Shown here: positions 10,112 to 37,156 of the stretch, piece after piece
How positions within the stretch are numbered: the stretch's first letter is position 1
Layout of the letters: each line of letters opens with the position of its first letter
Assembly (NCBI GenBank): GCA_036946405.1
Contig: JAQIJC010000001.1
Span: forward strand, 2,927,501-2,991,500
DNA length: 64,000 nucleotides
Source of the DNA: Sphingomonas phyllosphaerae
Lineage (GTDB): Bacteria > Pseudomonadota > Alphaproteobacteria > Sphingomonadales > Sphingomonadaceae
Direction: 5' to 3'
Notes under the pieces: model-generated
What the model was told of the DNA's origin: nothing
What the model saw: only the letters and a program-made list of their open reading frames with translations
Database searches by the model: none
Program-made: the position numbers and the translations under genes

Positions 10112-11143
10112 CTATATCTTTGGGACACCTCCTTTATGACTGTCCCGTAGTAGAATGTGCAGGGGCCAACGAGATGAATTTGTTTCGGTGTGGCCGTCCT
10201 CATTCTCTACTATCGACACTAGTTTACCTGCAAGAGCTAGACCCAAGGCGTTTAAATCAAGCGTGAAGCACGTAAGCTCGGGTGACAAGGCTTGGCACAT
10301 GGGGTTGTTGCGCAGACCAATCACCGCAATATCTCGTCCAGGCTCCTGACCCGCGTCGCGGAGTGCTCGATACGCGCCCACCGGCGCTGTTTCGCCCATC
10401 AGCAACAACGCCGACGGTGGTTGCTCCAGCGCCATCAGCTCGCGTGTCGCAGCCTCGCCGTCATGCTCGTCTGTGTCGCCGCGGTGGATCAGCGCTTCAT
10501 CCGCCGCAAGTCCGGCCCGGCCGAGCGCCGCACGATATTCGGCGACGACGATGTGGCTGTTGTTGATCGTCGCGGGGGGCGTGACCAGCCCGATCCGGCG
10601 GTGACCGTTGGCGAGCAGCAGTGCCATCGCCTCTGCGACGACACCTTCGAAGTCGAGGTCAATCCACGAATAATCATCAATCGACGCGGTACGTCCGAGC
10701 GCAACGAAGGGAATACGACGTTCCGACAGTAACTTGATGCGGGCATCCTCATATTGCGTGCCCGACAGCAACCAGCCATCCACCGTGCCGCGGGCGATAT
10801 GGCGGCGCAGGAAGGTTTCGCCGTCCTCGCCCTTGCGCGCGAGCAGGATCACCAAATCGAGGCCGTGGTCGACCAGCCCGGCCTGCACGCCTTCGAGGAG
10901 CGCCATGAAGAACGGATCGCCGTGGACCGCGCTATCGTGTTCCAGCGTCAGCATAAAACCGATCGTGGCCGTTCGCCCAATTCGCAGCGTCCGGCCGAAT
11001 TGATTGGGCGTGTAGCCCAATGCCGACGCCGCCTCCAGCACACGCTGCCGGGTTAAGGGACTGACATCCTTCCGATCATTCAGCGCGCGCGACACCGTCC
11101 CGATCGACAAGCCCAGATGGCCGGCAAGCGCCCGAATGTCCAT
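10112..11143 (-). CDS. LacI-family transcriptional regulator
   Basis: A protein of 343 residues starting at the ATG at 11143 (MDIRALAGHLGLSIGTVSRAL), which puts the LacI helix-turn-helix at the very N-terminus as in the family. The hinge helix region NQFGRTLRIGRT leads into the periplasmic-binding-protein-like sensor domain, with SALLLMGETAPVGAYRALRDAG and a D/R-rich sugar pocket. The first C-terminal subdomain begins at ATIGFML. It is divergent from the GH31 gene at 11264. A 16-bp palindrome at 11214-11229 sits between them and is a good operator candidate. It probably represses the downstream glycosidase/transporter/TBDR genes until an oligosaccharide breakdown product binds. Confidence 0.95.
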   Translation of the reverse strand: MDIRALAGHLGLSIGTVSRALNDRKDVSPLTRQRVLEAASALGYTPNQFGRTLRIGRTATIGFMLTLEHDSAVHGDPFFMALLEGVQAGLVDHGLDLVILLARKGEDGETFLRRHIARGTVDGWLLSGTQYEDARIKLLSERRIPFVALGRTASIDDYSWIDLDFEGVVAEAMALLLANGHRRIGLVTPPATINNSHIVVAEYRAALGRAGLAADEALIHRGDTDEHDGEAATRELMALEQPPSALLLMGETAPVGAYRALRDAGQEPGRDIAVIGLRNNPMCQALSPELTCFTLDLNALGLALAGKLVSIVENEDGHTETNSSRWPLHILLRDSHKGGVPKI

Positions 11144-11213
11144 CCGCGCCTGATCGCCGCCGCGCGCCGGCGACGCAAGAGCCTTGACAGACACCGACCC
11201 GACAAGCACAAGA

Positions 11214-11229
11214 CCGGAAACGTTTACGG
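11214..11229. promoter_or_regulatory. candidate LacI-family operator
   Basis: CCGGAAACGTTTACGG is an inverted repeat with one mismatched pair out of eight and a perfect AAACGTTT centre, the central-CG palindrome typical of LacI/GalR operators. It lies between the LacI gene and the GH31 start (11264). A TTGACA hexamer at 11184-11189 could be a -35 element, but no clear -10 follows. Confidence 0.6.
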
Positions 11230-11263
11230 CTCGGAATTGCCGAGCGGGGAGAGAAAGAAAAGC

Positions 11264-13324
11264 GTGGATACGCTGACGCTTGAGGAGCGCGCGATCGTCT
11301 GGGCCTATGATGGCGACTGGGTGCGGATCGAGGCGCATGGGCCGAGCGGATTGCGGCTACGCGCCTCGACCTATGCCCCCCGCCCCGCCGCGCCGGGTGC
11401 GTTGCTCGACATCGAGCCGGTTGCCGCCTCGATCGAACGGGACGGTTCGGTAGCACGAATTCGCAGCGGCGGGATCACGGCGGAGCTGGATTTACAAGGC
11501 CGCGTGCGCCTTCTGGATCATGCGGGACGCGTTCTGCTCGAGGAAAAATGGCGGCAGCGCGATACGGTCACCAGATTCTGGACAATCGGCAGCGAGACGG
11601 TCGAGACGATCAGCGCGCTGGGTCTGGCCGGGCGTGAATTCCATCCGCTGCCGGGCGGGGCGGCGCGAATCACGGTGCGGTTCGAGGCGAAACCCGGCGA
11701 GCGGCTGTACGGCATGGGCCAGTACCAGCAACCCAACCTCGACCTCGCCGGCTGCGTGCTCGAACTGGCGCAGCGCAATTCGCAGGCGAGCGTGCCCTTC
11801 GTCGTCTCGAGCCACGGCTACGGGATGTTGTGGAACAGCCCGGCGGTCGGCGAGGCGTGTTTCGCGGCCAATGGCGCGATCTGGACCGCGCATGCCGCGC
11901 ACGAGATCGATTACTGGATCACCGCCGCCGACACGCCCGCGCAGATCGTGCGCAACTATGCGCAGGTCACCGGCACCGCGCCGATGATGCCCGATTATGC
12001 GCTGGGATTGTGGCAGAGCAAGCTACGCTACCGCACGCAGGACGAGCTGCTGGCAGTGGCGCGCGCCTATCGCGACCGAGGGATCCCGCTGGCGGTGATC
12101 GTCGCCGACTTCTTCCACTGGCCGGTACAAGGCGACTGGCGGTTCGATGCGCGCGAATGGCCTGACCCCGCCGCGATGTGCGCCGAGCTGGCGGCGATGG
12201 GCACCGCGCTGATGGTGTCGGTGTGGCCGACCGTCGATCCGCGTTCGGAAAACTACCCGACGCTCGCCGAGCGCGGCTATCTGGTGCGCGCCAACCGCGG
12301 CGTCGACGTGCAGCAGGAGTTCCTCGGCAACACGCGCTTCCTCGACGTCACGCATCCCGGCGCGCGCGACTTCCTGTGGCAGACGCTGAAGCGCAACTAT
12401 CGCGACAAGGGCGTGACGTTGTTCTGGCTCGACGAGGCCGAGCCAGAATATGGCGCCTATGACTTCGACAATTATCGCTATCATGCCGGCGAGGTGCTGG
12501 CGGTCGGCAACGCCTATCCGCTGCATTATGCGCAAGCGCTCCACGACGGGCTGGCCGCCGAGGGCGCGGGCGAGACCGTCAGCCTGGTGCGCTGCGCCTG
12601 GGCGGGGAGCCAGCGTTATGGCGCGCTGATCTGGTCGGGCGACATCCACAGCTCGTTCACCGCGATGCGCAACCAGCTGAGCGCCGGGCTCAACATGGCA
12701 ATGGCCGGCATCCCGTGGTGGACGACCGATATCGGCGGCTTCCACGGCGGCGATGTCGCCGATCCGGCGTTCCACGAGCTGATGATCCGCTGGTTCCAAT
12801 GGGCGGTGTTCACCCCGGTGCTGCGGATGCACGGGCATCGCGACCCGATCACCCCACCCGCCGAGCCGTTCCGCGACGGGGTGGCGCAATGCGACACCGG
12901 CGCGGGCAACGAATTGTGGAGCTTCGGCGACGACGTGTTCGCGATCCTGCGCCGCTACGCCGGCTTGCGCGAGCGGCTGCGGCCCTATGTCGCCGGGCTG
13001 ATGCGCGCCGCGCACGAAGCGGGCGACCCGCCGATGCGGCCGATGTTCTACGATTATCCCGAGCAGCCGCGCAGCTGGGAAGTTGACGACCAATATATGT
13101 TCGGTCCCGACCTGCTGGTCGCGCCGGTCACCGCGGCGGGCGTCGACGCGCGCGACGTGTGGCTGCCGGCGGGCGCGTGGGTCGACGCCTGGACCGGGGC
13201 GGAAGTGGCGGGCGACGCGACGCTCCGCTGCGCCGCGCCGCGCGACCGGCTGCCGGTGTTCGTCCGCGCCGGCGCGCGCGTCGCGGACGCGTTCGGGGAC
13301 AGGCCGAAGGACGCTGGGGCATGA
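11264..13324 (+). CDS. GH31 alpha-glycosidase (alpha-xylosidase/alpha-glucosidase-like)
   Basis: A protein of 686 residues. The GTG at 11264 is chosen because GGGGAGAG at 11246-11253 precedes it by about ten bases; the frame is open further upstream but runs into the regulator's control region. The N-terminal beta-sandwich (to about residue 210) precedes the catalytic barrel, which starts at PDYALGLWQSKLRYRTQDEL. FWLDEAEPE holds the nucleophile Asp (D390) and WSGDIHSSF the acid/base Asp (D460). FGPDLLVAPV marks the C-terminal sandwich. No signal peptide is visible, so it is probably cytoplasmic, acting on sugars imported by the coupled transporter. Alpha-xylosidase is a guess within GH31. Its stop overlaps the next ATG (ATGA). 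Confidence 0.93.
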   Translation: MDTLTLEERAIVWAYDGDWVRIEAHGPSGLRLRASTYAPRPAAPGALLDIEPVAASIERDGSVARIRSGGITAELDLQGRVRLLDHAGRVLLEEKWRQRDTVTRFWTIGSETVETISALGLAGREFHPLPGGAARITVRFEAKPGERLYGMGQYQQPNLDLAGCVLELAQRNSQASVPFVVSSHGYGMLWNSPAVGEACFAANGAIWTAHAAHEIDYWITAADTPAQIVRNYAQVTGTAPMMPDYALGLWQSKLRYRTQDELLAVARAYRDRGIPLAVIVADFFHWPVQGDWRFDAREWPDPAAMCAELAAMGTALMVSVWPTVDPRSENYPTLAERGYLVRANRGVDVQQEFLGNTRFLDVTHPGARDFLWQTLKRNYRDKGVTLFWLDEAEPEYGAYDFDNYRYHAGEVLAVGNAYPLHYAQALHDGLAAEGAGETVSLVRCAWAGSQRYGALIWSGDIHSSFTAMRNQLSAGLNMAMAGIPWWTTDIGGFHGGDVADPAFHELMIRWFQWAVFTPVLRMHGHRDPITPPAEPFRDGVAQCDTGAGNELWSFGDDVFAILRRYAGLRERLRPYVAGLMRAAHEAGDPPMRPMFYDYPEQPRSWEVDDQYMFGPDLLVAPVTAAGVDARDVWLPAGAWVDAWTGAEVAGDATLRCAAPRDRLPVFVRAGARVADAFGDRPKDAGA

Positions 13325-28358: not shown

Positions 28359-29210
28359 ATGTCGAATCCCCTGATCGGAGTCTTCTACCACTGGCTGGGC
28401 GGACTGTCCTCGGCCAGCTTCTACGTCCCGTATCGCGGGGTGCGGGGGTGGAACTGGGAAGTGCTGTGGCTGACCGGCGGGCTGTTTTCCTGGCTGTTCG
28501 CGCCATGGCTGTTCGCGCTGGTGATGACGCACGATCTTTTCGGGGTGCTCGCACGGGTGCCGGCGTCGACCGCGGGCCTGTACATGCTGTTCGGTGCGCT
28601 ATGGGGCTTCGGCGGGCTGACCTACAGACTGACGATGCGCTATCTGGGCCTGTCGCTCGGGATAGCGGTGGTATTGGGGCTGTGCACGGTGTTCGGCACG
28701 CTGATCCCGCCGATCGTCGCGGGCGATTTCGCCGGCAGGTTGCTCGGCACGGCCAGCGGGCGGATCATCCTGCTCGGGCTGGCGGCGACGCTCGCCGGGA
28801 TCGTCGTGGTGGCCGCGGCGGGTGCGCGAAAGAATGCGGCGCTGGACGATGTCGCGAAGGAAGCGGCCGTCGCGGAGTTCGCTTTCCGCAAGGGGATCGG
28901 CATCGCGATCTTCTCGGGGGTCATGTCCTCGTGCTTCGCGTTCGGGCTGGCGGCGGGCGAGCCGGTCAGGGCCTTGTCCGCAGCGGCCGGAACGCGGCCA
29001 TTGTGGACGGGGTTGCCGGTGCTGTGCCTCGTCATGCTCGGCGGCCTCGTCACCAACGCCTTGTGGTGCGCGGCGTTGATCCTGCGCAACCGCTCGGGCG
29101 GGCAATGGCTCGGGCGCGCCGCCGCGACGAGGGAGCGCCCGGCGCTGGCCCGCAACTACCTGCTCGCCGCGCTGATGTCCTGCTGCCCTCGCCCCGTCGA
29201 TCCATCCTAA
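28359..29210 (+). pseudogene. rhaT: L-rhamnose-proton symporter RhaT, 3'-truncated
   Basis: The ATG at 28359 has a good GGAGGA at 28349-28354. The text follows RhaT closely: GVFYHWLGGLSSASFYVPYR, then GLYMLFGALWGFGGLTYRLT and FRKGIGIAIFSGVMSSCFAF, with about eight membrane helices. After NYLLAAL the expected final helices are replaced by a short unrelated tail (MSCCPRPVDPS) and a stop. The product is 283 residues where RhaT is about 340. Loss of the last helices should inactivate the carrier, though I cannot exclude residual function. It would have taken up L-rhamnose released by the GH78 enzyme at 34529-37156. Confidence 0.85.
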
Positions 29211-29263: not shown

Positions 29264-32050
29264 TCAGAACTTGTACCGCACGCTGCCACCGTAGGTCCGC
29301 GACTGATAGATGACTTCGCGGGGCTGATCGGGGAAGCCGTAGAACGTCCTCCGGGTGCTTGCCATGATATTCGAGACCTGGCCGCTCAGGATCAATCCCT
29401 TGAATGGACCATTCTTGAACTCGTAATTGACGGCCGCATCCATCCAGTCGACCGGCAGCATATATTGCGACAGGTAGAGCGGGTATTGGATCCCGGTCAA
29501 TATCTTCCCGCGCCAGTTGTACGACAGTCGTGCGTTCAATCCATCCCGCTCGAACAATCCGACCAGATTGAAGACGTTCTTGGCGGTATTGGTGAGCGGC
29601 GTGCTGGACGGCGGATCGTTTTCCGCACCGGGGACCTTGTCCCATTCGAGCTTCGAATCGGTGTAGGTGTAGTTTGCCTGTACACCGAAGCTCTTCATGA
29701 TCCCCGGCAGGAAGGAGAAGAATGTCTGCCCCTGCACCTCGAACCCGCGTCGATAACCCTTGCCGGCGTTGTAGGGCCGCAACACGTCGTAAAGGCCCGC
29801 ATCGGCGTAAAGCTGCTCCTGAATGTAGAAGTTCGTGATCGCTCCCTTCAGCTTCCAGTAGAAGGGGGCGATGGTAATCAAACCCGTCTTGCCGAAATAG
29901 AATTCGAGCGATGCGTCATATTTCGTCGAGCGCTCGGGCTTGAGATCAGGGTTGCCTGCGCTCGCATATTCGTTCGCGTCATAAACGTCGATGCTCGACG
30001 ACATGGAGAACAACGAGGGCCGTCGGAAATCCTGAGTATATCCCAAGCGCAGCTGCACCGGATCGGCAAAGTGCACGATCGCGTTGAGGCTGGGCAGGAC
30101 GGAGAGATAATTGCCGTGCCCTACGATCGGCGCGATGTTCAGGACGGTCGCATTGGCACCGTTGACCACGCCGGGTTGCCGACGCCGTTGGAAAGATCGC
30201 ATCTGCACATCGGTATTGGAAATTCGCACGCCCATTACGCCGTCGATCGGGAACAGGACCTTGATGGCATAATGAAGTTGGCCGTAGCTCGAAAAGGTAT
30301 ATTCCTTCCCGTCGAAGAAATCGCTCTGGCTCAGAGGCGGAAGCGGCGTCTGGAAATCGGCGGACTTCTTCCACAGGAAATCATAGAGCGCCGGCATGGC
30401 GGCAGTGACGGTGTCGAAATCATAACTCAGCCAGCGCGCGTTGTTCTGCACGCCCGTACCACGAAAACCCTCCGCGATCGGGATTAGATTCTGAAAACCT
30501 TCGGGCATATCGCTTGCCGGGATCAACAGATTCCCGAAACTGCGCGCGCGCACCCGGCGCTTGTACCGCTTCTGCTCCCAACGCATGCCGACCTGAAGCC
30601 AGTCGAGACTGTCCCAGAAGGTTCTCAGCGTCAGGTCGCTCTGGCCGGCGGCCGTGACGTTGTTGTTGGTCCGGATCGATTCGTCGAACTGCGCAAAGCG
30701 ATATTGCTTCGGATCGAGCAGATCGACGTTGCGAAAGTTCGCGTTCATCATGGGATAGCGGAATTTATCGCTCGCAAATTCGATGTCGAATTCCGGCCGG
30801 TTGACGAAGCGATTGCGGATGTTCCGGTCTTGCAGCGTGTTGATGGACTGCGAAACGGAAATCGCGGTTTTCAGCGTGAACCGTGGCGTATCCCACACAC
30901 CGCTCAACTGGCCGACGAGGCTGTCGTTCGGGTTATTGTAGGGTGACGTAATCGGACCGAACTGGGTGACCGGCGACACGGTCACCGACGCCAGGCGGTT
31001 CGTTCCCGGGACCAACTTGATGTTGCTCAGGGCTGGCGCGGTGTTGTTGGCGCTCGACAGGACGGGCACGTAGAGCTGCGCCGTGTTGCGTTGCCAGTCG
31101 ACATGCGTGTAGCTGCCCTCGAGGACGAGGCTGACGTTATCCTCCGGCTTCCATTGCACGGCCCCCGAATAGGCGATCGTGTCACGATGCCCGGTGACAT
31201 AGGTGAACGCTGCCTGATACGGCCCGATCAGGGGGAACGGCGTAAGCTGCGATCCGACGACCTGCCGCGGCGACAGGGTCGTGGCGCTATCGTTCAACGC
31301 CCGTGATTCGAGGAACGGATTGGCATTGTAGGTGACGTTGAGCAGCACGCCGACCTTACCGATCGACGTATCGGCATTGTAGTTGAGGATGCCGGTATAG
31401 TTTTGATTGACCTTGCCGGCCTGCTGAACGTAGCGGGCCTGTCCGATCACCGTCCCGGAGAAGCCGAGCCGGAAATCGGTCGGACGGCGCAGGGTCACGT
31501 TGATTGTTCCGGCGCCGCTGCCCTCCGGCTGATCGGCGGTGCGCGTCTTGTATACCTCGACGCTCTTGACCAGATCGGCGGGCAATTGCTGGAAGGCGCC
31601 GGTGCGGTCGAGTGAATTGGTGATGGGAACGCCGTTCACCGATGTCTGGATGTCGCCCAGACCGCGCAGCTGGATGCCGTTCCCGCTCGGCGGCGCGATG
31701 CCGCCCTCGTCGCGCGTGACCTGGATGCCCGGGATGAGCGACACGACATCGGCCACCGTGTTGTTGGGCAGCTTGCCGACGTCCTCGGCCTTGACGACGT
31801 CGACGATCTGAGCCGCATTGCGCTTCTCGTGCCGCGCGGCGCTCAGGCTGTTGCGGACGCCGACGACCTGGATGGTGTTGGGATCGTCGTCGACCTGGCT
31901 CTGCGGCGCGCTTTTGGCCTTCTTGTCCTTGACACGCTTCTTCTCGGTATGCCCCGATGATGGCGACACGCTCTGCGCCGCGGCATCCGCCGCCGCCCCT
32001 GCCACGATGAGCGCGAGCGCCGACACCCGCACGATCAGATTGCTCCGCAT
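29264..32050 (-). CDS. TonB-dependent receptor, third gene of the ferritin-like operon
   Basis: A protein of 928 residues. The ATG at 32050 is chosen because AGGGGAG lies about eight bases upstream; a TTG two codons earlier is possible. It has a signal peptide (ALALIVAGAAADAAAQ) and then a Lys-rich linker (KKRVKDKKAK) before the plug VVGVRNSLSAARHEKRNAAQ. The plug contains IPGIQVTRDEGG and IQLRGLGDIQTSVNG, and the barrel ends YGGSVRYKF. It follows the two ferritin-like protein genes at 33187-34125 and 32138-33160 with short gaps, suggesting one transcript. The ligand is unknown. The GH78 rhamnosidase upstream suggests a glycan; the ferritin-like proteins could suggest metal. Confidence 0.94.
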   Translation of the reverse strand: MRSNLIVRVSALALIVAGAAADAAAQSVSPSSGHTEKKRVKDKKAKSAPQSQVDDDPNTIQVVGVRNSLSAARHEKRNAAQIVDVVKAEDVGKLPNNTVADVVSLIPGIQVTRDEGGIAPPSGNGIQLRGLGDIQTSVNGVPITNSLDRTGAFQQLPADLVKSVEVYKTRTADQPEGSGAGTINVTLRRPTDFRLGFSGTVIGQARYVQQAGKVNQNYTGILNYNADTSIGKVGVLLNVTYNANPFLESRALNDSATTLSPRQVVGSQLTPFPLIGPYQAAFTYVTGHRDTIAYSGAVQWKPEDNVSLVLEGSYTHVDWQRNTAQLYVPVLSSANNTAPALSNIKLVPGTNRLASVTVSPVTQFGPITSPYNNPNDSLVGQLSGVWDTPRFTLKTAISVSQSINTLQDRNIRNRFVNRPEFDIEFASDKFRYPMMNANFRNVDLLDPKQYRFAQFDESIRTNNNVTAAGQSDLTLRTFWDSLDWLQVGMRWEQKRYKRRVRARSFGNLLIPASDMPEGFQNLIPIAEGFRGTGVQNNARWLSYDFDTVTAAMPALYDFLWKKSADFQTPLPPLSQSDFFDGKEYTFSSYGQLHYAIKVLFPIDGVMGVRISNTDVQMRSFQRRRQPGVVNGANATVLNIAPIVGHGNYLSVLPSLNAIVHFADPVQLRLGYTQDFRRPSLFSMSSSIDVYDANEYASAGNPDLKPERSTKYDASLEFYFGKTGLITIAPFYWKLKGAITNFYIQEQLYADAGLYDVLRPYNAGKGYRRGFEVQGQTFFSFLPGIMKSFGVQANYTYTDSKLEWDKVPGAENDPPSSTPLTNTAKNVFNLVGLFERDGLNARLSYNWRGKILTGIQYPLYLSQYMLPVDWMDAAVNYEFKNGPFKGLILSGQVSNIMASTRRTFYGFPDQPREVIYQSRTYGGSVRYKF

Positions 32051-32137
32051 CGTCAAAACTCCCCTATCGTCTTGTCCGGCAGCCGCGCTGCCCCCCTGTT
32101 GATCCAGCCCGTTGCGCGCCTTCGCGGCGCTGTGCGG

Positions 32138-33160
32138 TCAGGTATCGATGCTGCTGCGGATCGCGCCGTTGACGCCGGCGGGAAAAAAGCCGCCGCCCTC
32201 GCCCCTCGTCCGGCGCGCGTAGACGGTGTTGAGCGTCAGCTGCGGCAGCCGCGCGAAGACGACGCCTTCGCTGTCGGTCGGCACGATGTTCGCGACCGTG
32301 CCGGGCGTCTTGACCGATCCGGCCGTCACGCCCTGATCGTCGTCCGACGGCGCAAACTGGTCGCGCCAGTCGCTGAGCCGCAAGCTCGCGAGCCGAAGCG
32401 TCGTGCCGGTAGCGCCGTCGCGCAGATAGATCTGGCTGCGCACCACCGCCGCGTGATGCGCGGCGGCCGACAGCAATCCGCCGATCAGACCGGTGGTCGC
32501 ACCGGCCTGCACCATCTGCAAATGGCCCTTCAGCGCGTTGACCGCGACATCCTCGAGGATGAAGGCGCCCTGCAACAGCAGGTTCTGGTCGGCGTAGACG
32601 TCGAACAGCGCCGGCGCCTTGACCACTCCCGCATTGCGGGCAAAGACGGTGAAGACGCCGGTATCCGTCGTCGCCAGGTCGATGGCCGGCGCCGCCGTCG
32701 CCGCACCGCCCAGCGCCGCGCGCAAGCGGGTGACCTGGGCGATCTTGCCCAGCGCGATCTCGGCCAGCATTTCGCCCAGAACGCTGTCCGCGATCGTGGC
32801 CTGCCGCGCGCCCGTCGCGGTGCCCGCCGTTCCCGTGCCCGACGTCAGCGCGGCCGGCAGCGGCACGCCCAGGACGGCGATCGAGTAGAATTGCGCCTGA
32901 AGATACGCGATCTGCAGCGACAGGTTGAGCAGGTCATTGTCGCTTACGCTGGTGAGGGTCGGCGTGGGGGTGGGCGTCGGCGTGGGCGTCGGCGATCCGC
33001 TGGGCGTGGGCGTCGGGGTTCCCGCGAGCGGCGAATCTTCGCTGCCGCAACCGACGAGCGTCGCCATGCCGCCGATCGCGGCAGCCATGCCGAGCACCCG
33101 ACGCCGACCGAGGACGGACGCGGGGGAGCCTCCGGTGTCACCGGATACACGATTGTTCAT
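32138..33160 (-). CDS. Tat-exported lipoprotein with ferritin-like domain
   Basis: A protein of 340 residues. The N-terminus has a twin-arginine motif (GRRRVLGMAAAIGG) followed by a lipobox-like ATLVGCGS, so it is probably a Tat-exported lipoprotein. A proline/threonine linker of PT repeats (about residues 48-68) tethers the domain. The helical domain contains LNLSLQIAYLQAQFYSIAVL and AFILEDVAVNALKGHL, typical of the 'ferritin-like domain' family of exported desiccation-related proteins. It ends GGGFFPAGVNGAIRSS, nearly identical to the tail of its neighbour at 33187-34125, so the two are paralogues. Function is unknown; conserved E and H residues in the helices could bind metal. Confidence 0.88.
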   Translation of the reverse strand: MNNRVSGDTGGSPASVLGRRRVLGMAAAIGGMATLVGCGSEDSPLAGTPTPTPSGSPTPTPTPTPTPTLTSVSDNDLLNLSLQIAYLQAQFYSIAVLGVPLPAALTSGTGTAGTATGARQATIADSVLGEMLAEIALGKIAQVTRLRAALGGAATAAPAIDLATTDTGVFTVFARNAGVVKAPALFDVYADQNLLLQGAFILEDVAVNALKGHLQMVQAGATTGLIGGLLSAAAHHAAVVRSQIYLRDGATGTTLRLASLRLSDWRDQFAPSDDDQGVTAGSVKTPGTVANIVPTDSEGVVFARLPQLTLNTVYARRTRGEGGGFFPAGVNGAIRSSIDT

Positions 33161-33186
33161 GGTTCCTGGTTCCTTGAAAGCGCCGC

Positions 33187-34125
33187 TCAGGCGGCGGTGC
33201 TGCTGCGGATGGAGCCGTTTACGCCGGCCGGGAAAAAGCCCCCGCTCGTCGCCTGCCCGGAGGACTGATAGAGAATGCGCAGCAACTGCTGCGGCGTACG
33301 TCCCGGAACGTCACCATCGCCGTCCGTCGGCGTGATATTGGCGACCGTGATCGTCACCGGGCCGTTGGCAGCCTCGTATTTCCGCGACGTCGGCGCGACG
33401 CCCGTGAACAATCCGCCACCCGCCAGCTTCTGGCACATCGCCGCGATCGCCGCCGCATTGTCGCGCAGCCGCGCCACCTTGGCACCACGGCTGTACAGGA
33501 ACGAGCGGATGGTGGCGTGATGATAGCTCTCGGTAGCGAGGATGCCGGCCAGCAGCGCCGCCACCACCCGGTTTGATGCCGTGGCCAGCAGGCCGCGATA
33601 GGCAGAGACGCTGATCCCCTTCAGCAGGAACGCTGCATAGAGGAAATTCTCTTCCGAAGCATAGGGATCGAAGGCGGCGCCACTACCGACCAGGCCCGCC
33701 CGCTGCATGGCGACCGAAAACGCGCCGGTCGCATCCGCCGACAGATCGAGCGCCGGTTGCGAGATCGCCAGTGCGCCGATCACGGTCTTGATGGGATTGA
33801 AATGCGCGCGATTGTCGGCCGCCATCTCCGTGACGATCGAGGATAGCATCGTATCCGAGAAGGTGACCTTCCGCCCGGGCTTGACGGTACCTGGATCCGT
33901 GGCGCCCGCCAGCGAGGAGGTCGCCAGTCCCTGTCCAGTCGTCACATAAGTTAGAAATTGCGCATTCAGATACTCGACGTTGAGCACAAAGTTCAGCGCG
34001 TCGATATCGCCTGACGATTGGGCCTGCGCACCCTGCGCAGTCATCGCAATTAGCGACGAAGCCACACCAATACTCAGCGCCGCGCGTAATGCACCGCGAC
34101 GATCGGATGTGATCGTGTCCATCAT
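33187..34125 (-). CDS. exported ferritin-like domain protein
   Basis: A protein of 312 residues with an N-terminal export signal (DRRGALRAALSIGVASSLIA, possibly Tat because of the RR-like start) cleaved near GAQAQ. The helical domain includes DALNFVLNVEYLNAQFLTYV, with E/H positions that recur at ILATESYHHATIRSFLYSRG, a pattern able to form a di-metal site. It ends GGFFPAGVNGSIRSS like the next gene, 26 bp downstream. It is the first gene of the run that leads through the second ferritin-like gene to the TBDR. GGGAGAGGGGG precedes the ATG at 34125; an ATG one codon further in is also possible. Confidence 0.88.
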   Translation of the reverse strand: MMDTITSDRRGALRAALSIGVASSLIAMTAQGAQAQSSGDIDALNFVLNVEYLNAQFLTYVTTGQGLATSSLAGATDPGTVKPGRKVTFSDTMLSSIVTEMAADNRAHFNPIKTVIGALAISQPALDLSADATGAFSVAMQRAGLVGSGAAFDPYASEENFLYAAFLLKGISVSAYRGLLATASNRVVAALLAGILATESYHHATIRSFLYSRGAKVARLRDNAAAIAAMCQKLAGGGLFTGVAPTSRKYEAANGPVTITVANITPTDGDGDVPGRTPQQLLRILYQSSGQATSGGFFPAGVNGSIRSSTAA

Positions 34126-34528: not shown

Positions 34529-37156
34529 TCAGCGCGCCGGAGATCGAAGCACGGCCGTCAGCACGCGTTCGCCGCCGAGTCGCGCCGCTACGCCGCCATC
34601 CCTCATGATCTCCCGCCCGCTCGCGCCGACGATGGACAGGCGGGCGGGATCGGCACCGGCAAGCAGGCCCGTCGACAGTTCGACCGTGGCATCGACGTTG
34701 GCTGGCGCCCGTATGGACACCTTGTCGCCGGCATATTCGACCAGCACCGGCCCGCGGATCGTCGGAATATGCGCGGTAAAGCGGGAGAGTCCGGCGGGTT
34801 CCGGACGGATACGCAGCGCGGCTGCACCGGGAGCGGTCATTTCCACCCCGGCGATGAACCGCGCGACGATATTGGCGGGCGCGCTGCCCCATGCGTGGCT
34901 GAACGTGGTGTTCGGCTTGATCGCCGGATCCCAGGCCTCCATCGCGATCGTCGCCCCGAGGTCGTCGATCATATGCAACCACGAGAAGCGTGTGCGACTG
35001 GTCATCAATGCCAGGGCAGCGCGCGGCTGCCCGGCCTGGAACAGCGCCTCCAGCAAGAATTGCGCCCCATAGACGCTCATCCGCATTCCTTGCGCGGCCA
35101 GCACCCGGCCGGCGGCGAGCCGGTGGCTGTCGGGCACCACGCCAAGCGCGACCGCAAAGGCGGTGGCATGTTGTGAACGATGATCGGCCCCGATCCCGTC
35201 CGCATAGCTGCCGTCCGGAGCCAGAAGCCGCGCATTGATCGCCTCGCGCAACCGACCGGCCTGCCCGGCAAAGCGGGTGCGATCCCCCGTCCGCCCCACC
35301 ACATCCGCAATATTCGCCAGCGCGACGAGCGCAGCATATTGCCAGCAATTGACCACCGTGTTGACGCGCGTGAAGACATAGCCGTCACGATTGGCGACGG
35401 GCCAGTCGACCAGATCGCCCTCGGCCTGGCTCGATGCACCCGGGTCCTTCTCGACCAGTCCCTCCGCATTGATGCGGTCGGGCAGAAAGCGGGCGACCAT
35501 CGCCGCATAATTCTCGGACAGTACGGCCGGATCGCCGGTCGCCATATAGTCGCGCCACGCGAGCACCGGCGTCTGCATCCGGTATTCGGTCGGCCATGTC
35601 GGGCGTCGCGCGAGATAGCCGGTCGCATAGCGCGCCAAGCCATAGCTACGCTGCGTCGCGAATTCTGACAGCTGATTGACGATCGCATCGCCCTCATACG
35701 GGCCGCGCTCGCGCGTGGGCGTGTCCTGATACAGATCGAGCCGAAGCGCCTCGATCGAATAGCGACACATCGCCCAGACACGGTCGAGATCGGCGTCGGA
35801 GCTGGTGAAGGCGGCATCGTCGTCGCGCCACGGCAACGCCAGGCGACATCCCGTGACCGCGTCGGTCAGGTCGAGCGCGGGGTCGGTCAGCACCTCGACC
35901 CACCGAAAGGCACGATAGCCCCAATGTTGCAGGGACTGCGGGCCATCGCGGAGCGTCCAGACCTCGCGATATTGCTGCGACGCGCGCAGCTTGTAACGGG
36001 CACCTCCGTCCTCGCCACGTTCCTCGCCAAGGCGGAGCTCGACGGTCTGGCCGGCGGTTCCGACGATCGACAGGCGGACGCCGCCGACGATCTCGCGCTG
36101 CATGTCGAAGAGCCAGCGACCCGGCGCGAGGCGCCTCGCCAGCGGTTTGACAGAAGTCTCGACGACCGGATCGACACGCTCGGGTTGCAGGGCAAGGCCC
36201 AGCGTCGCGGACGCGGGGGCGGCCCAACCGCGGGCATCGAAGCCGAGGCGATCCCATCCGACCGGCTCCGCGCGGGCGTTGATGAATTCCTGCGGCGCGG
36301 CATAATAGCCGCCACCCGTGCTGCCGGAAGCGGGTCGCCAGCGATCACCCGTCGCGACGCGCCAGCCCGTATCCGGTCCGGTGCCGATGACGATCCGTTC
36401 GCCACTGGTGCGCACGATGGTGAGTTGCGCGAGAAACGCGTGCCCCTCCGTCGCGTAGCACAGCGCGCCGAGGACGTTGGCACCGGGGCGAAGCCGATCG
36501 GTCAGGTCGAAGGTGGCGTACCGCAGTTCCGCGACGGGATCGTAGGAGCGCACCGGGCCGACGCCGACGAACGTGCCGTTGAGCGTCAGGCGAAAGACAT
36601 ATTGGCGCGCCGGTTCGGGCGAGGCGGCAGTGACGTGGAGCCACGCCGCCTCGACGTCGCCGGGCACGTCGAAGGCGAGGCGGGCCAGCAGCCAGTCGCC
36701 GGGCGTGGGCGTCCAGACCGGTCGCGCCGCCCAGGTTTCAGGGGCGGCACCGATCAGGCGCTGCGGCGCGCTCCATTGCGAGGCACGACCTGCCTCGTCC
36801 CAGCTTCGCACGCGCCAGAAGGTATGATGTCCTCGCGCCACGATCGGAAAGGGCATGATGACGCTTGTGGTCGCACGCTCCGCAATCCGGCCGGTATCCC
36901 GGTCGGGTTGGTCGTTGAGCAGGCGGCGGCGAGACGTGGCGGCCTGAACCTGCCAGCCGGTCTGGACGCCGCGGGTGCCGGCGGGCGCAGTCCAGCTAAG
37001 CCGGGCCGCTTCCGGAAGGATGCCCGCCGGCTCCTCCCGCAGATCGACCAGCAGCCCTTCCGGGGCTTCGCCGCCGGAGCCGGCGCGGGCGGCGCCGGCG
37101 AGCGGAAGAGCGGCAGCGCCGCCAGCCGCGGCGATCAGTTCGCGCCGGCTTAGCAT
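34529..37156 (-). CDS. GH78 alpha-L-rhamnosidase
   Basis: A protein of 875 residues starting MLSRRELIAAAGGAAALPLA, a Tat signal peptide (SRREL). The order follows GH78: N-terminal fibronectin-like region, a beta-sandwich with YVFRLTLNGTFVGVGPV and QYREVWTLRDGPQ, then the (alpha/alpha)6 barrel. The catalytic signature is DTPTRERGPYEGDA, corresponding to the family's D-x-x-x-R-x-E-x-x-x-x-GDA pattern with the acid Glu. The C-terminal sandwich includes HAWGSAPANIVARFIAGVE and RPEPAGLSRF. It removes alpha-L-rhamnose from rhamnogalacturonan or glycosides in the periplasm. The remnants of rhaT and a lactonase nearby suggest this strain once also catabolised the rhamnose. Confidence 0.94.
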   Translation of the reverse strand: MLSRRELIAAAGGAAALPLAGAARAGSGGEAPEGLLVDLREEPAGILPEAARLSWTAPAGTRGVQTGWQVQAATSRRRLLNDQPDRDTGRIAERATTSVIMPFPIVARGHHTFWRVRSWDEAGRASQWSAPQRLIGAAPETWAARPVWTPTPGDWLLARLAFDVPGDVEAAWLHVTAASPEPARQYVFRLTLNGTFVGVGPVRSYDPVAELRYATFDLTDRLRPGANVLGALCYATEGHAFLAQLTIVRTSGERIVIGTGPDTGWRVATGDRWRPASGSTGGGYYAAPQEFINARAEPVGWDRLGFDARGWAAPASATLGLALQPERVDPVVETSVKPLARRLAPGRWLFDMQREIVGGVRLSIVGTAGQTVELRLGEERGEDGGARYKLRASQQYREVWTLRDGPQSLQHWGYRAFRWVEVLTDPALDLTDAVTGCRLALPWRDDDAAFTSSDADLDRVWAMCRYSIEALRLDLYQDTPTRERGPYEGDAIVNQLSEFATQRSYGLARYATGYLARRPTWPTEYRMQTPVLAWRDYMATGDPAVLSENYAAMVARFLPDRINAEGLVEKDPGASSQAEGDLVDWPVANRDGYVFTRVNTVVNCWQYAALVALANIADVVGRTGDRTRFAGQAGRLREAINARLLAPDGSYADGIGADHRSQHATAFAVALGVVPDSHRLAAGRVLAAQGMRMSVYGAQFLLEALFQAGQPRAALALMTSRTRFSWLHMIDDLGATIAMEAWDPAIKPNTTFSHAWGSAPANIVARFIAGVEMTAPGAAALRIRPEPAGLSRFTAHIPTIRGPVLVEYAGDKVSIRAPANVDATVELSTGLLAGADPARLSIVGASGREIMRDGGVAARLGGERVLTAVLRSPAR

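Follow-up and report, generated by a model that had tools for sequence, protein, structure and literature searches.

The window analysed here is a stretch of 64,000 nucleotides from Sphingomonas phyllosphaerae (assembly GCA_036946405.1, contig JAQIJC010000001.1, positions 2,927,501 to 2,991,500), and its subject is a row of three minus strand genes encoding two exported proteins of the Ferritin_2 family, here called FerA and FerB, and a TonB-dependent receptor (TBDR). The coordinates of the open reading frames bear out the row as described in the initial annotation: FerA, FerB and the TBDR are consecutive in that order with gaps of 26 and 87 bp, the second value assuming an ATG start of the receptor at 32050, and the mechanically called frame begins at TTG 32056. 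Both ferritin-like proteins score well above the gathering cut-off of PF13668 (24.7 bits), which was also passed by all ten further members of linked loci that were scanned and by both proteins of the plasmid locus L242 described below. The third gene lies above the curated cut-off of the TIGR01782 (TonB-Xanth-Caul) receptors (310 bits) and in addition matches the plug (PF07715) and barrel (PF00593) domains in a Pfam scan. Positions of all features are collected in Table 1.

Table 1. Positions of the three genes, their diagnostic sites and the adjoining genes in the window
Feature	Position	Strand	Remarks
FerA	33187..34125	-	exported soluble Ferritin_2 protein, 312 amino acids; PF13668, 93.4 bits
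FerB	32138..33160	-	exported Ferritin_2 lipoprotein, 340 amino acids; PF13668, 63.2 bits
TBDR of the Ferritin_2-linked clade	29264..32050	-	TIGR01782, 475.8 bits; ATG start, alternative TTG 32056
FerA codon N105, bridging Glu position, helix 2	33811..33813	-	N/N/N/S in the four collinear orthologues; E in 38/42 canonical proteins
FerA codon K169, metal Glu position, helix 3	33619..33621	-	K in 4/4 collinear orthologues
FerB codon K139, bridging Glu position, helix 2	32744..32746	-	K in 4/4 collinear FerB
FerB lipobox Cys38 (LVGC, +2 Gly)	33047..33049	-	from sequence
FerB Pro-Thr linker	32951..33022	-	from sequence
FerA GGFFPAGVNG tail	33214..33243	-	family-wide; ordered in model
FerB GGFFPAGVNG tail	32165..32194	-	family-wide; ordered in model
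GH78 alpha-L-rhamnosidase, neighbour	34529..37156	-	Bac_rhamnosid6H, 147 bits
RhaT L-rhamnose/H+ symporter, convergent neighbour	28371..29210	+	PF06379, 166 bits; start approximate

An alignment of FerA with FerB spans 275 columns at 35% identity, with an E value of 3e-35 in a single comparison, and judged by it the resemblance of the two proteins is homology, chance being excluded. The alignment includes the GGFFPAGVNG-IRSS tail, which had been noticed before as nearly the same in both proteins and is confirmed as such. The export signals recorded in the initial annotation are likewise seen in the sequence. Read by eye, the N-terminus of FerA has a twin arginine and ends in AQAQ, and that of FerB combines a twin arginine with a lipobox-like LVGC and a run of proline and threonine.

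The occurrence of the three genes was followed in a survey of 295 Sphingomonas genomes. A FerB profile gave four proteins with 494-632 bits and all others at 297 bits or less, the four being those of the window, of Sphingomonas sp. Leaf17 (G394), and of the genomes G357 and G396; draws of 397 genomes from the family and 289 from the class gave no further FerB at E 1e-100 and 1e-90. All four loci have FerA, FerB and the TBDR on one strand and in the sequence seen in the window, the genes being separated by 19-30 and 74-90 bp, and this arrangement is called collinear in the following. The collinear orthologues at L068, L069 and L187 are 50-53% identical to FerA of the window, and for FerB the collinear orthologues show 46-50% identity. 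A TBDR profile built from three collinear receptors, with the best three candidates per genome scored, then yielded 13 places in 12 of the 295 genomes at E<=1e-190 (at least 636 bits). Every one of the 13 adjoins a FerA-FerB pair, the four collinear ones and nine others with 636-716 bits where the pair lies directly adjacent on the opposite strand (divergent arrangement), as against 24 control TBDR loci with 337-508 bits, none of which has Ferritin_2 within 1.5 kb. The control comprised every further TBDR locus returned at these scores when 30 genomes of the genus and 199 of the family were searched, G346:C8 being left out as it was listed but had no locus, and the interval of 508-636 bits was sampled in these control genomes only. 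Adjacency to Ferritin_2 pairs is confined to a single clade among those TIGR01782 receptors of the genus that were tested, and the linkage is real and specific. Conversely, the 80 loci obtained by a separate FerB scan, which used two search patterns, contained a detectable receptor relative only once, at the Leaf17 module itself. In the loci inspected, the constant neighbours of the three genes are each other only. That the trio, for which the initial annotation knew of no assigned role, forms a functional unit is supported by this conserved linkage, 13 of 13 against 0 of 24, and the genes are not unlinked in relatives. From sequence comparison FerA and FerB are very probably coupled in function with the receptor.

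A 14th example is found on a plasmid of Sphingomonas parapaucimobilis, where two proteins annotated as ferritin-like domain-containing face a TonB-dependent receptor in the divergent arrangement. The frame of this receptor (L242:8746-11615) is split into two coding sequences, and that of the linked TBDR of G396 (L187:6650-9434) is interrupted near its end and read in two frames. G357 carries both arrangements (L216 divergent, L069 collinear) together with a canonical pair (L081) in one genome. The source genome of the window has three Ferritin_2 pairs (six domains), of which the other two, L007 and L008, are without an adjoining TBDR, a partial TBDR match occurring several kb from the pair at L008. 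At L007 (8389-11918) the pair is canonical and ligand-complete and stands, as judged by eye, divergent to a gene resembling those for extracytoplasmic function (ECF) sigma factors (10640-11224). A probable gene for an anti-sigma factor (11214-11918) comes next, so that the locus resembles part of a stress regulon.

The canonical Ferritin_2 metal site is formed by a glutamate in helix 1, a Glu-x-x-His in helix 2, a glutamate in helix 3, and another Glu-x-x-His in helix 4, and all six ligands are likewise present in DRB0118, a biochemically characterised protein of Deinococcus radiodurans. For the metabolite phosphatase RvFeMP-1, passages of PMC11616004 list the ligands as Glu51, Glu90, His93, Glu132, Asp135, and Asp162, and report that replacement of Asp135 in the third helix abolished activity. 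This aspartate was not included in the ligand tally because it has no obvious bacterial equivalent. Among complete and distinct proteins from 113 loci, all six ligands are kept in 149 of 170 unlinked Ferritin_2 proteins and changed in the remaining 21, as compared to changes in all 26 linked proteins; this count leaves out a frame at L114 cut by the contig end and, from linked loci, two slivers of frames. Fisher's exact test for linkage and ligand change gave 8.5e-21 with the two slivers and the cut frame in the table, and 1.4e-19 for a smaller set in which 113 of 127 unlinked proteins are intact, kinship being ignored in both cases. When the unlinked proteins are restricted to those that came from family or whole-protein searches alone, the full set of six ligands is intact in 38 of 42. 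The 80 loci of the FerB scan had been picked partly by a helix-1 pattern that included changed letters, a bias which runs opposite to the claim that ligand loss goes with linkage.

Neither FerA nor FerB has the full dinuclear ligand set on four helices found in DRB0118, and as far as such residues can tell, the ancestral catalysis has probably been lost in both. It is rather unlikely that the two proteins are still catalytic or carry metal, be it in a site that has been remodelled, for instance to a mononuclear one, or for delivery of a metal or cofactor taken up by the TBDR. Such retained chemistry would fit the metal dependence of the characterised family members described in passages of PMC11616004. 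It would also fit four ligands of collinear FerA, E51, H108, E199, and H202 in the numbering of the window, which are identical in all four orthologues, and the twin-arginine leaders, which are retained in all eight collinear proteins. Leaders of this type are typical of proteins exported in the folded state. The ligands of the other linked proteins argue against it: collinear FerB keeps two of six, the changed positions in the window being A85, K139, Q142, and A233 and the exchange of the helix-2 histidine to glutamine (Q142) occurring in all four collinear FerB, and out of 18 divergent proteins 15 keep no ligand, two keep one, and one keeps two. The ligand changes also bear on whether the genes are an ordinary stress-related Ferritin_2 phosphatase pair with a TBDR that is merely adjacent. 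FerB-like proteins are indeed common, with matches at E<=1e-20 in 112 of 151 genus genomes, and according to passages of PMC11616004 the relative in Deinococcus is important for surviving desiccation, but a mere neighbourhood is very improbable in view of the linkage at 13 of 13 loci against 0 of 24 and of a metal site altered in every linked protein.

Metal loss as a unique property of TBDR-linked pairs was ruled out by the 21 changed unlinked proteins, which show that metal loss needs no TBDR. Both members of a pair are changed, with no relative of the window TBDRs found, at L076:10800-13039 (the second pair of this locus), L083:7940-10116, L126:9860-11804, L143:8896-10969, and L146:9854-11895. 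At L089, L091, L094, L096, L120, L151, and L154 the member on the lipoprotein side has alanine in helix 1, threonine for the bridging glutamate, and lysine in helix 4, and by this sequence pattern these proteins apparently form a second metal-altered Sphingomonas lineage with no TBDR detected nearby.

The predicted structures place both proteins in the family fold. AlphaFold models had mean predicted local distance difference test (pLDDT) values of 90.1 for FerA and 84.6 for FerB, and both models show a four-helix bundle like that of RvFeMP-1. This protein (8KCE) was the best solved match for FerA (Z 18.6, root mean square deviation 2.2, 168 residues aligned; next protein Z 13.8) as well as for FerB (Z 18.1, root mean square deviation 2.1, 163 aligned; next protein Z 13.1). 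Searched by sequence against the PDB, FerB by itself gave chance matches only, and a family profile reached RvFeMP-1 at E 0.11 only, the matter being decided by the comparison of folds; for FerA, Foldseek by itself had an E value of 5e-3. FerA is 32% identical to DRB0118. The metabolite phosphatases RvFeMP-1 and DRB0118 belong to the same Pfam family and have the predicted fold of FerA and FerB, and PCC13-62 is a further protein of the Ferritin_2 family. FerA and FerB differ from the phosphatases in their changed ligands and their coupling to a TBDR, and they form a pair, whereas DRB0118 stands singly among the genes annotated around it. A comparison of four divergent modules gave ratios of nonsynonymous to synonymous substitution rates (dN/dS) of 0.08-0.18 for FerA and FerB, some of the dS values being near saturation. 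Such low ratios indicate purifying selection, so FerA and FerB are not dying genes. A scan for promoters and terminators remained near chance and was not used.

Trees of Ferritin_2 proteins and lipobox counts were based on the smaller protein set mentioned above, which lacks the FerA of L069. The 13 linked TBDRs formed one clade with a support of 99 (starred) when 40 receptors were placed in a quick tree, and each arrangement was supported with 100. The linked FerB of both arrangements grouped together with a support of 94 in another quick tree, which was calculated for 62 proteins after removal of the ligand columns. A single receptor clade and a common FerB group favour one coupling event for receptor and FerB, as far as these sequences go, and leave FerA unsettled. 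Pairwise distances of FerB and TBDR are correlated with 0.94 over the 13 loci, which is explicable by shared descent alone. A lipobox pattern occurs in 12 of the 13 linked FerB, none being detected in the one of L212, and in these 12 the cysteine is followed by glycine, serine or asparagine. According to the Lol rule the residue after the lipobox cysteine governs membrane sorting, and by this rule an outer membrane location of linked FerB is favoured. A soluble protein accompanied by a lipoprotein with a Pro-Thr linker is a common layout among Sphingomonas Ferritin_2 proteins. Single Ferritin_2 genes were detected at L099, L104, L109, L118, L122, L132, L140, L145, L148, L155, L159, and L162, all outside Sphingomonas (Comamonas, Delftia, Caballeronia, Acidovorax, Roseateles, Kineococcus, Williamsia, and Frigoribacterium), which makes the Ferritin_2 pair look like a sphingomonad trait. 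Pairs are also carried by L113 and L156, both labelled Microvirga, the label of L113 being probably wrong.

The strict conservation of the shared C-terminal tail had led to the suggestion in the initial annotation that it docks the two proteins onto something, perhaps the TBDR or a pilus- or curli-like partner. The tail was examined in 42 proteins of 20 pair loci (L007, L008, L070-L087), which had been found by Ferritin_2 or whole-protein search and at which no TBDR was detected beside the pair. All 42 of these proteins carry GGF and GxN, while FF occurs in 40 and the proline in 41, and DRB0118, which has the same tail as FerA, ends in GGFFPDGLTG and a few further residues. In the AlphaFold models of FerA and FerB the tail block is confidently ordered, with a mean pLDDT of 95-98. 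Tail counts from the 80 loci of the FerB scan are not independent, as the search patterns there included GFFPAG[LV]N. The tail is thus a structural hallmark of the bacterial Ferritin_2 family and no docking badge of the trio. Being generic and ordered, it gives no pointer to the receptor, and a role as TBDR docking signal was ruled out by its equal conservation in Deinococcus and in pairs beside which no TBDR was detected and by its place within the predicted fold. A pilus- or curli-like partner found no support either, and docking by the tail in any of these forms is hardly tenable.

The module in the window, flanked by the GH78 alpha-L-rhamnosidase and RhaT, is part of a large glycan locus (window positions 11117-47352) with GH31, a CBM35 protein, GH43, GH78, GH27, RhaT, and, counting the linked receptor, five TBDRs. 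Neighbours of the Leaf17 module are GH43, GH2, and a BD-FAE esterase, those of the collinear module of G357 are KduI, DUF2264, DUF4861, and a carrier of the major facilitator superfamily (MFS), and those of the G396 module GH43 together with DUF4861 and DUF2264, the latter two assigned by eye from their likeness to the G357 proteins. Carbohydrate genes thus stand beside all four collinear modules and three of nine divergent ones, with few neighbours tested per divergent locus. These three are L208 with, among others, an alpha-L-arabinofuranosidase domain protein, L212 with a GH3 directly behind FerB, and L214 with DUF2264. Non-glycan neighbours were RlmJ at L209, a kinase and an MFS carrier at L210, acyl and carboxyl transferase domains at L213, a pyridoxal phosphate enzyme and an amidohydrolase at L215, and an integrase at L216; the one open reading frame tested at L211 gave no match. 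With such an uneven distribution the glycan context was not accepted as proof of function. The integrase beside the divergent L216 module hints at a transfer of the three genes as a unit.

In essence the trio is a TBDR with dedicated accessory proteins made from an unexpected fold. A system close in layout is SusC/SusD of the Bacteroidota, where glycans are taken up by a TBDR together with a surface lipoprotein, which is encoded next to it, binds the glycan and acts as a lid on the receptor. The likeness lies in the receptor with a neighbouring lipoprotein gene and in the glycan genes around the window module. The differences are the ferritin-type bundle, which is unrelated to SusD, the presence of two accessory proteins, and the occurrence in Alphaproteobacteria. 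No match of FerA or FerB to the SusD family was obtained, the Pfam scan (E<=1) giving Ferritin_2 only. SusC-type receptors carry an N-terminal carboxypeptidase-regulatory-like domain, and such a domain was not found in the TBDR, for which the Pfam scan listed the plug, the barrel, and one sub-threshold match. For the change of ligands a parallel is known from the metal-free class Ie ribonucleotide reductase R2, a member of the ferritin superfamily in which the carboxylate ligands are replaced, lysine being among the substitutes, and the fold is kept. FerA and FerB resemble it in having ligands replaced, including by lysine, without loss of the fold. It differs in being a cytosolic radical enzyme, and homology to FerA and FerB is claimed at the level of the superfamily only.

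An accessory role is what we infer from these computational observations, and with about an even chance of being right we propose that a Ferritin_2 pair of the phosphatase type has been exapted as metal-free, non-catalytic accessory of one TBDR clade, substrate capture being a plausible task. The ancestor would have been an ordinary two-gene cassette of Sphingomonas encoding a soluble Ferritin_2 protein and a Ferritin_2 lipoprotein, both exported and both from the family of metal-dependent metabolite phosphatases to which RvFeMP-1 and DRB0118 belong. After coupling to one TBDR clade both proteins would have lost the dinuclear metal centre and, maintained by selection, would have retained their bundle fold, the leaders for export, the C-terminal tail and, in FerB, the lipid anchor. 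The pair would then no longer hydrolyse phosphate esters and would persist in the service of the receptor, either for binding or as a scaffold. FerB may be held at the outer membrane by its lipid, with the flexible linker providing reach, and together with soluble FerA it may bind the substrate of the receptor and pass it to or from the TBDR in a manner similar to SusD, to which it is unrelated. For the window this substrate would probably be a rhamnose-containing plant glycan fragment. The former metal pocket, once emptied, could accommodate a sugar; in RvFeMP-1 the pocket opens to the protein surface, as stated in a passage of PMC11616004.

Capture of substrate in the manner of SusD is the more doubtful part of this proposal and is put forward, by analogy, as a possibility. 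Equally tentative is the wider analogy, in which the trio would be an independent counterpart of SusD, a demetallated ferritin-type pair acting as substrate-capture partner of a TBDR in a portable three-gene module of Alphaproteobacteria. The pair might instead serve the receptor in its assembly or gating, or as a scaffold on the periplasmic or peptidoglycan side. The same linkage data and the correlated distances of FerB and TBDR, which shared descent could also produce, would fit such a role, and a lipid anchor with a flexible linker suits a scaffold as well. The analysis identified no partner site which would speak for it, and no assembly factor with a ferritin-type bundle fold is known to us, so that a role of this kind appears improbable.

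Several points weigh against an exapted metal-free accessory pair. The linked loci are few, four and nine in the 295 genomes, and share descent, so that 13 of 13 does not equal 13 independent events. Ligand changes also occur in the unlinked proteins mentioned above, and collinear FerA could hold one metal with the four ligands left. In the 62-protein tree the FerA of the two arrangements stand apart in an unresolved position. Finally, the few neighbours tested included no glycan gene at six of the nine divergent modules, and a glycan substrate is therefore not general.

No link between Ferritin_2 and TBDRs was found among the titles and abstract openings listed from the open-licence literature searched, and the matching passages of PMC10040529 and PMC6337780 are table lines. 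To our knowledge, TBDRs of Proteobacteria are generally without partners of the SusD type, and we know of little on how they gather bulky substrates. A receptor clade with two exported proteins of known fold offers a concrete and testable partner pair. It also provides an example of a family of metalloenzymes whose catalytic centre disappears as its members become coupled to a transporter. For annotation the finding is a warning, since the label of a ferritin-like domain implies neither iron nor phosphatase function here. For the organisms themselves, the pairing suggests that in some Sphingomonas an old enzyme fold has been reused as helpers in nutrient uptake.

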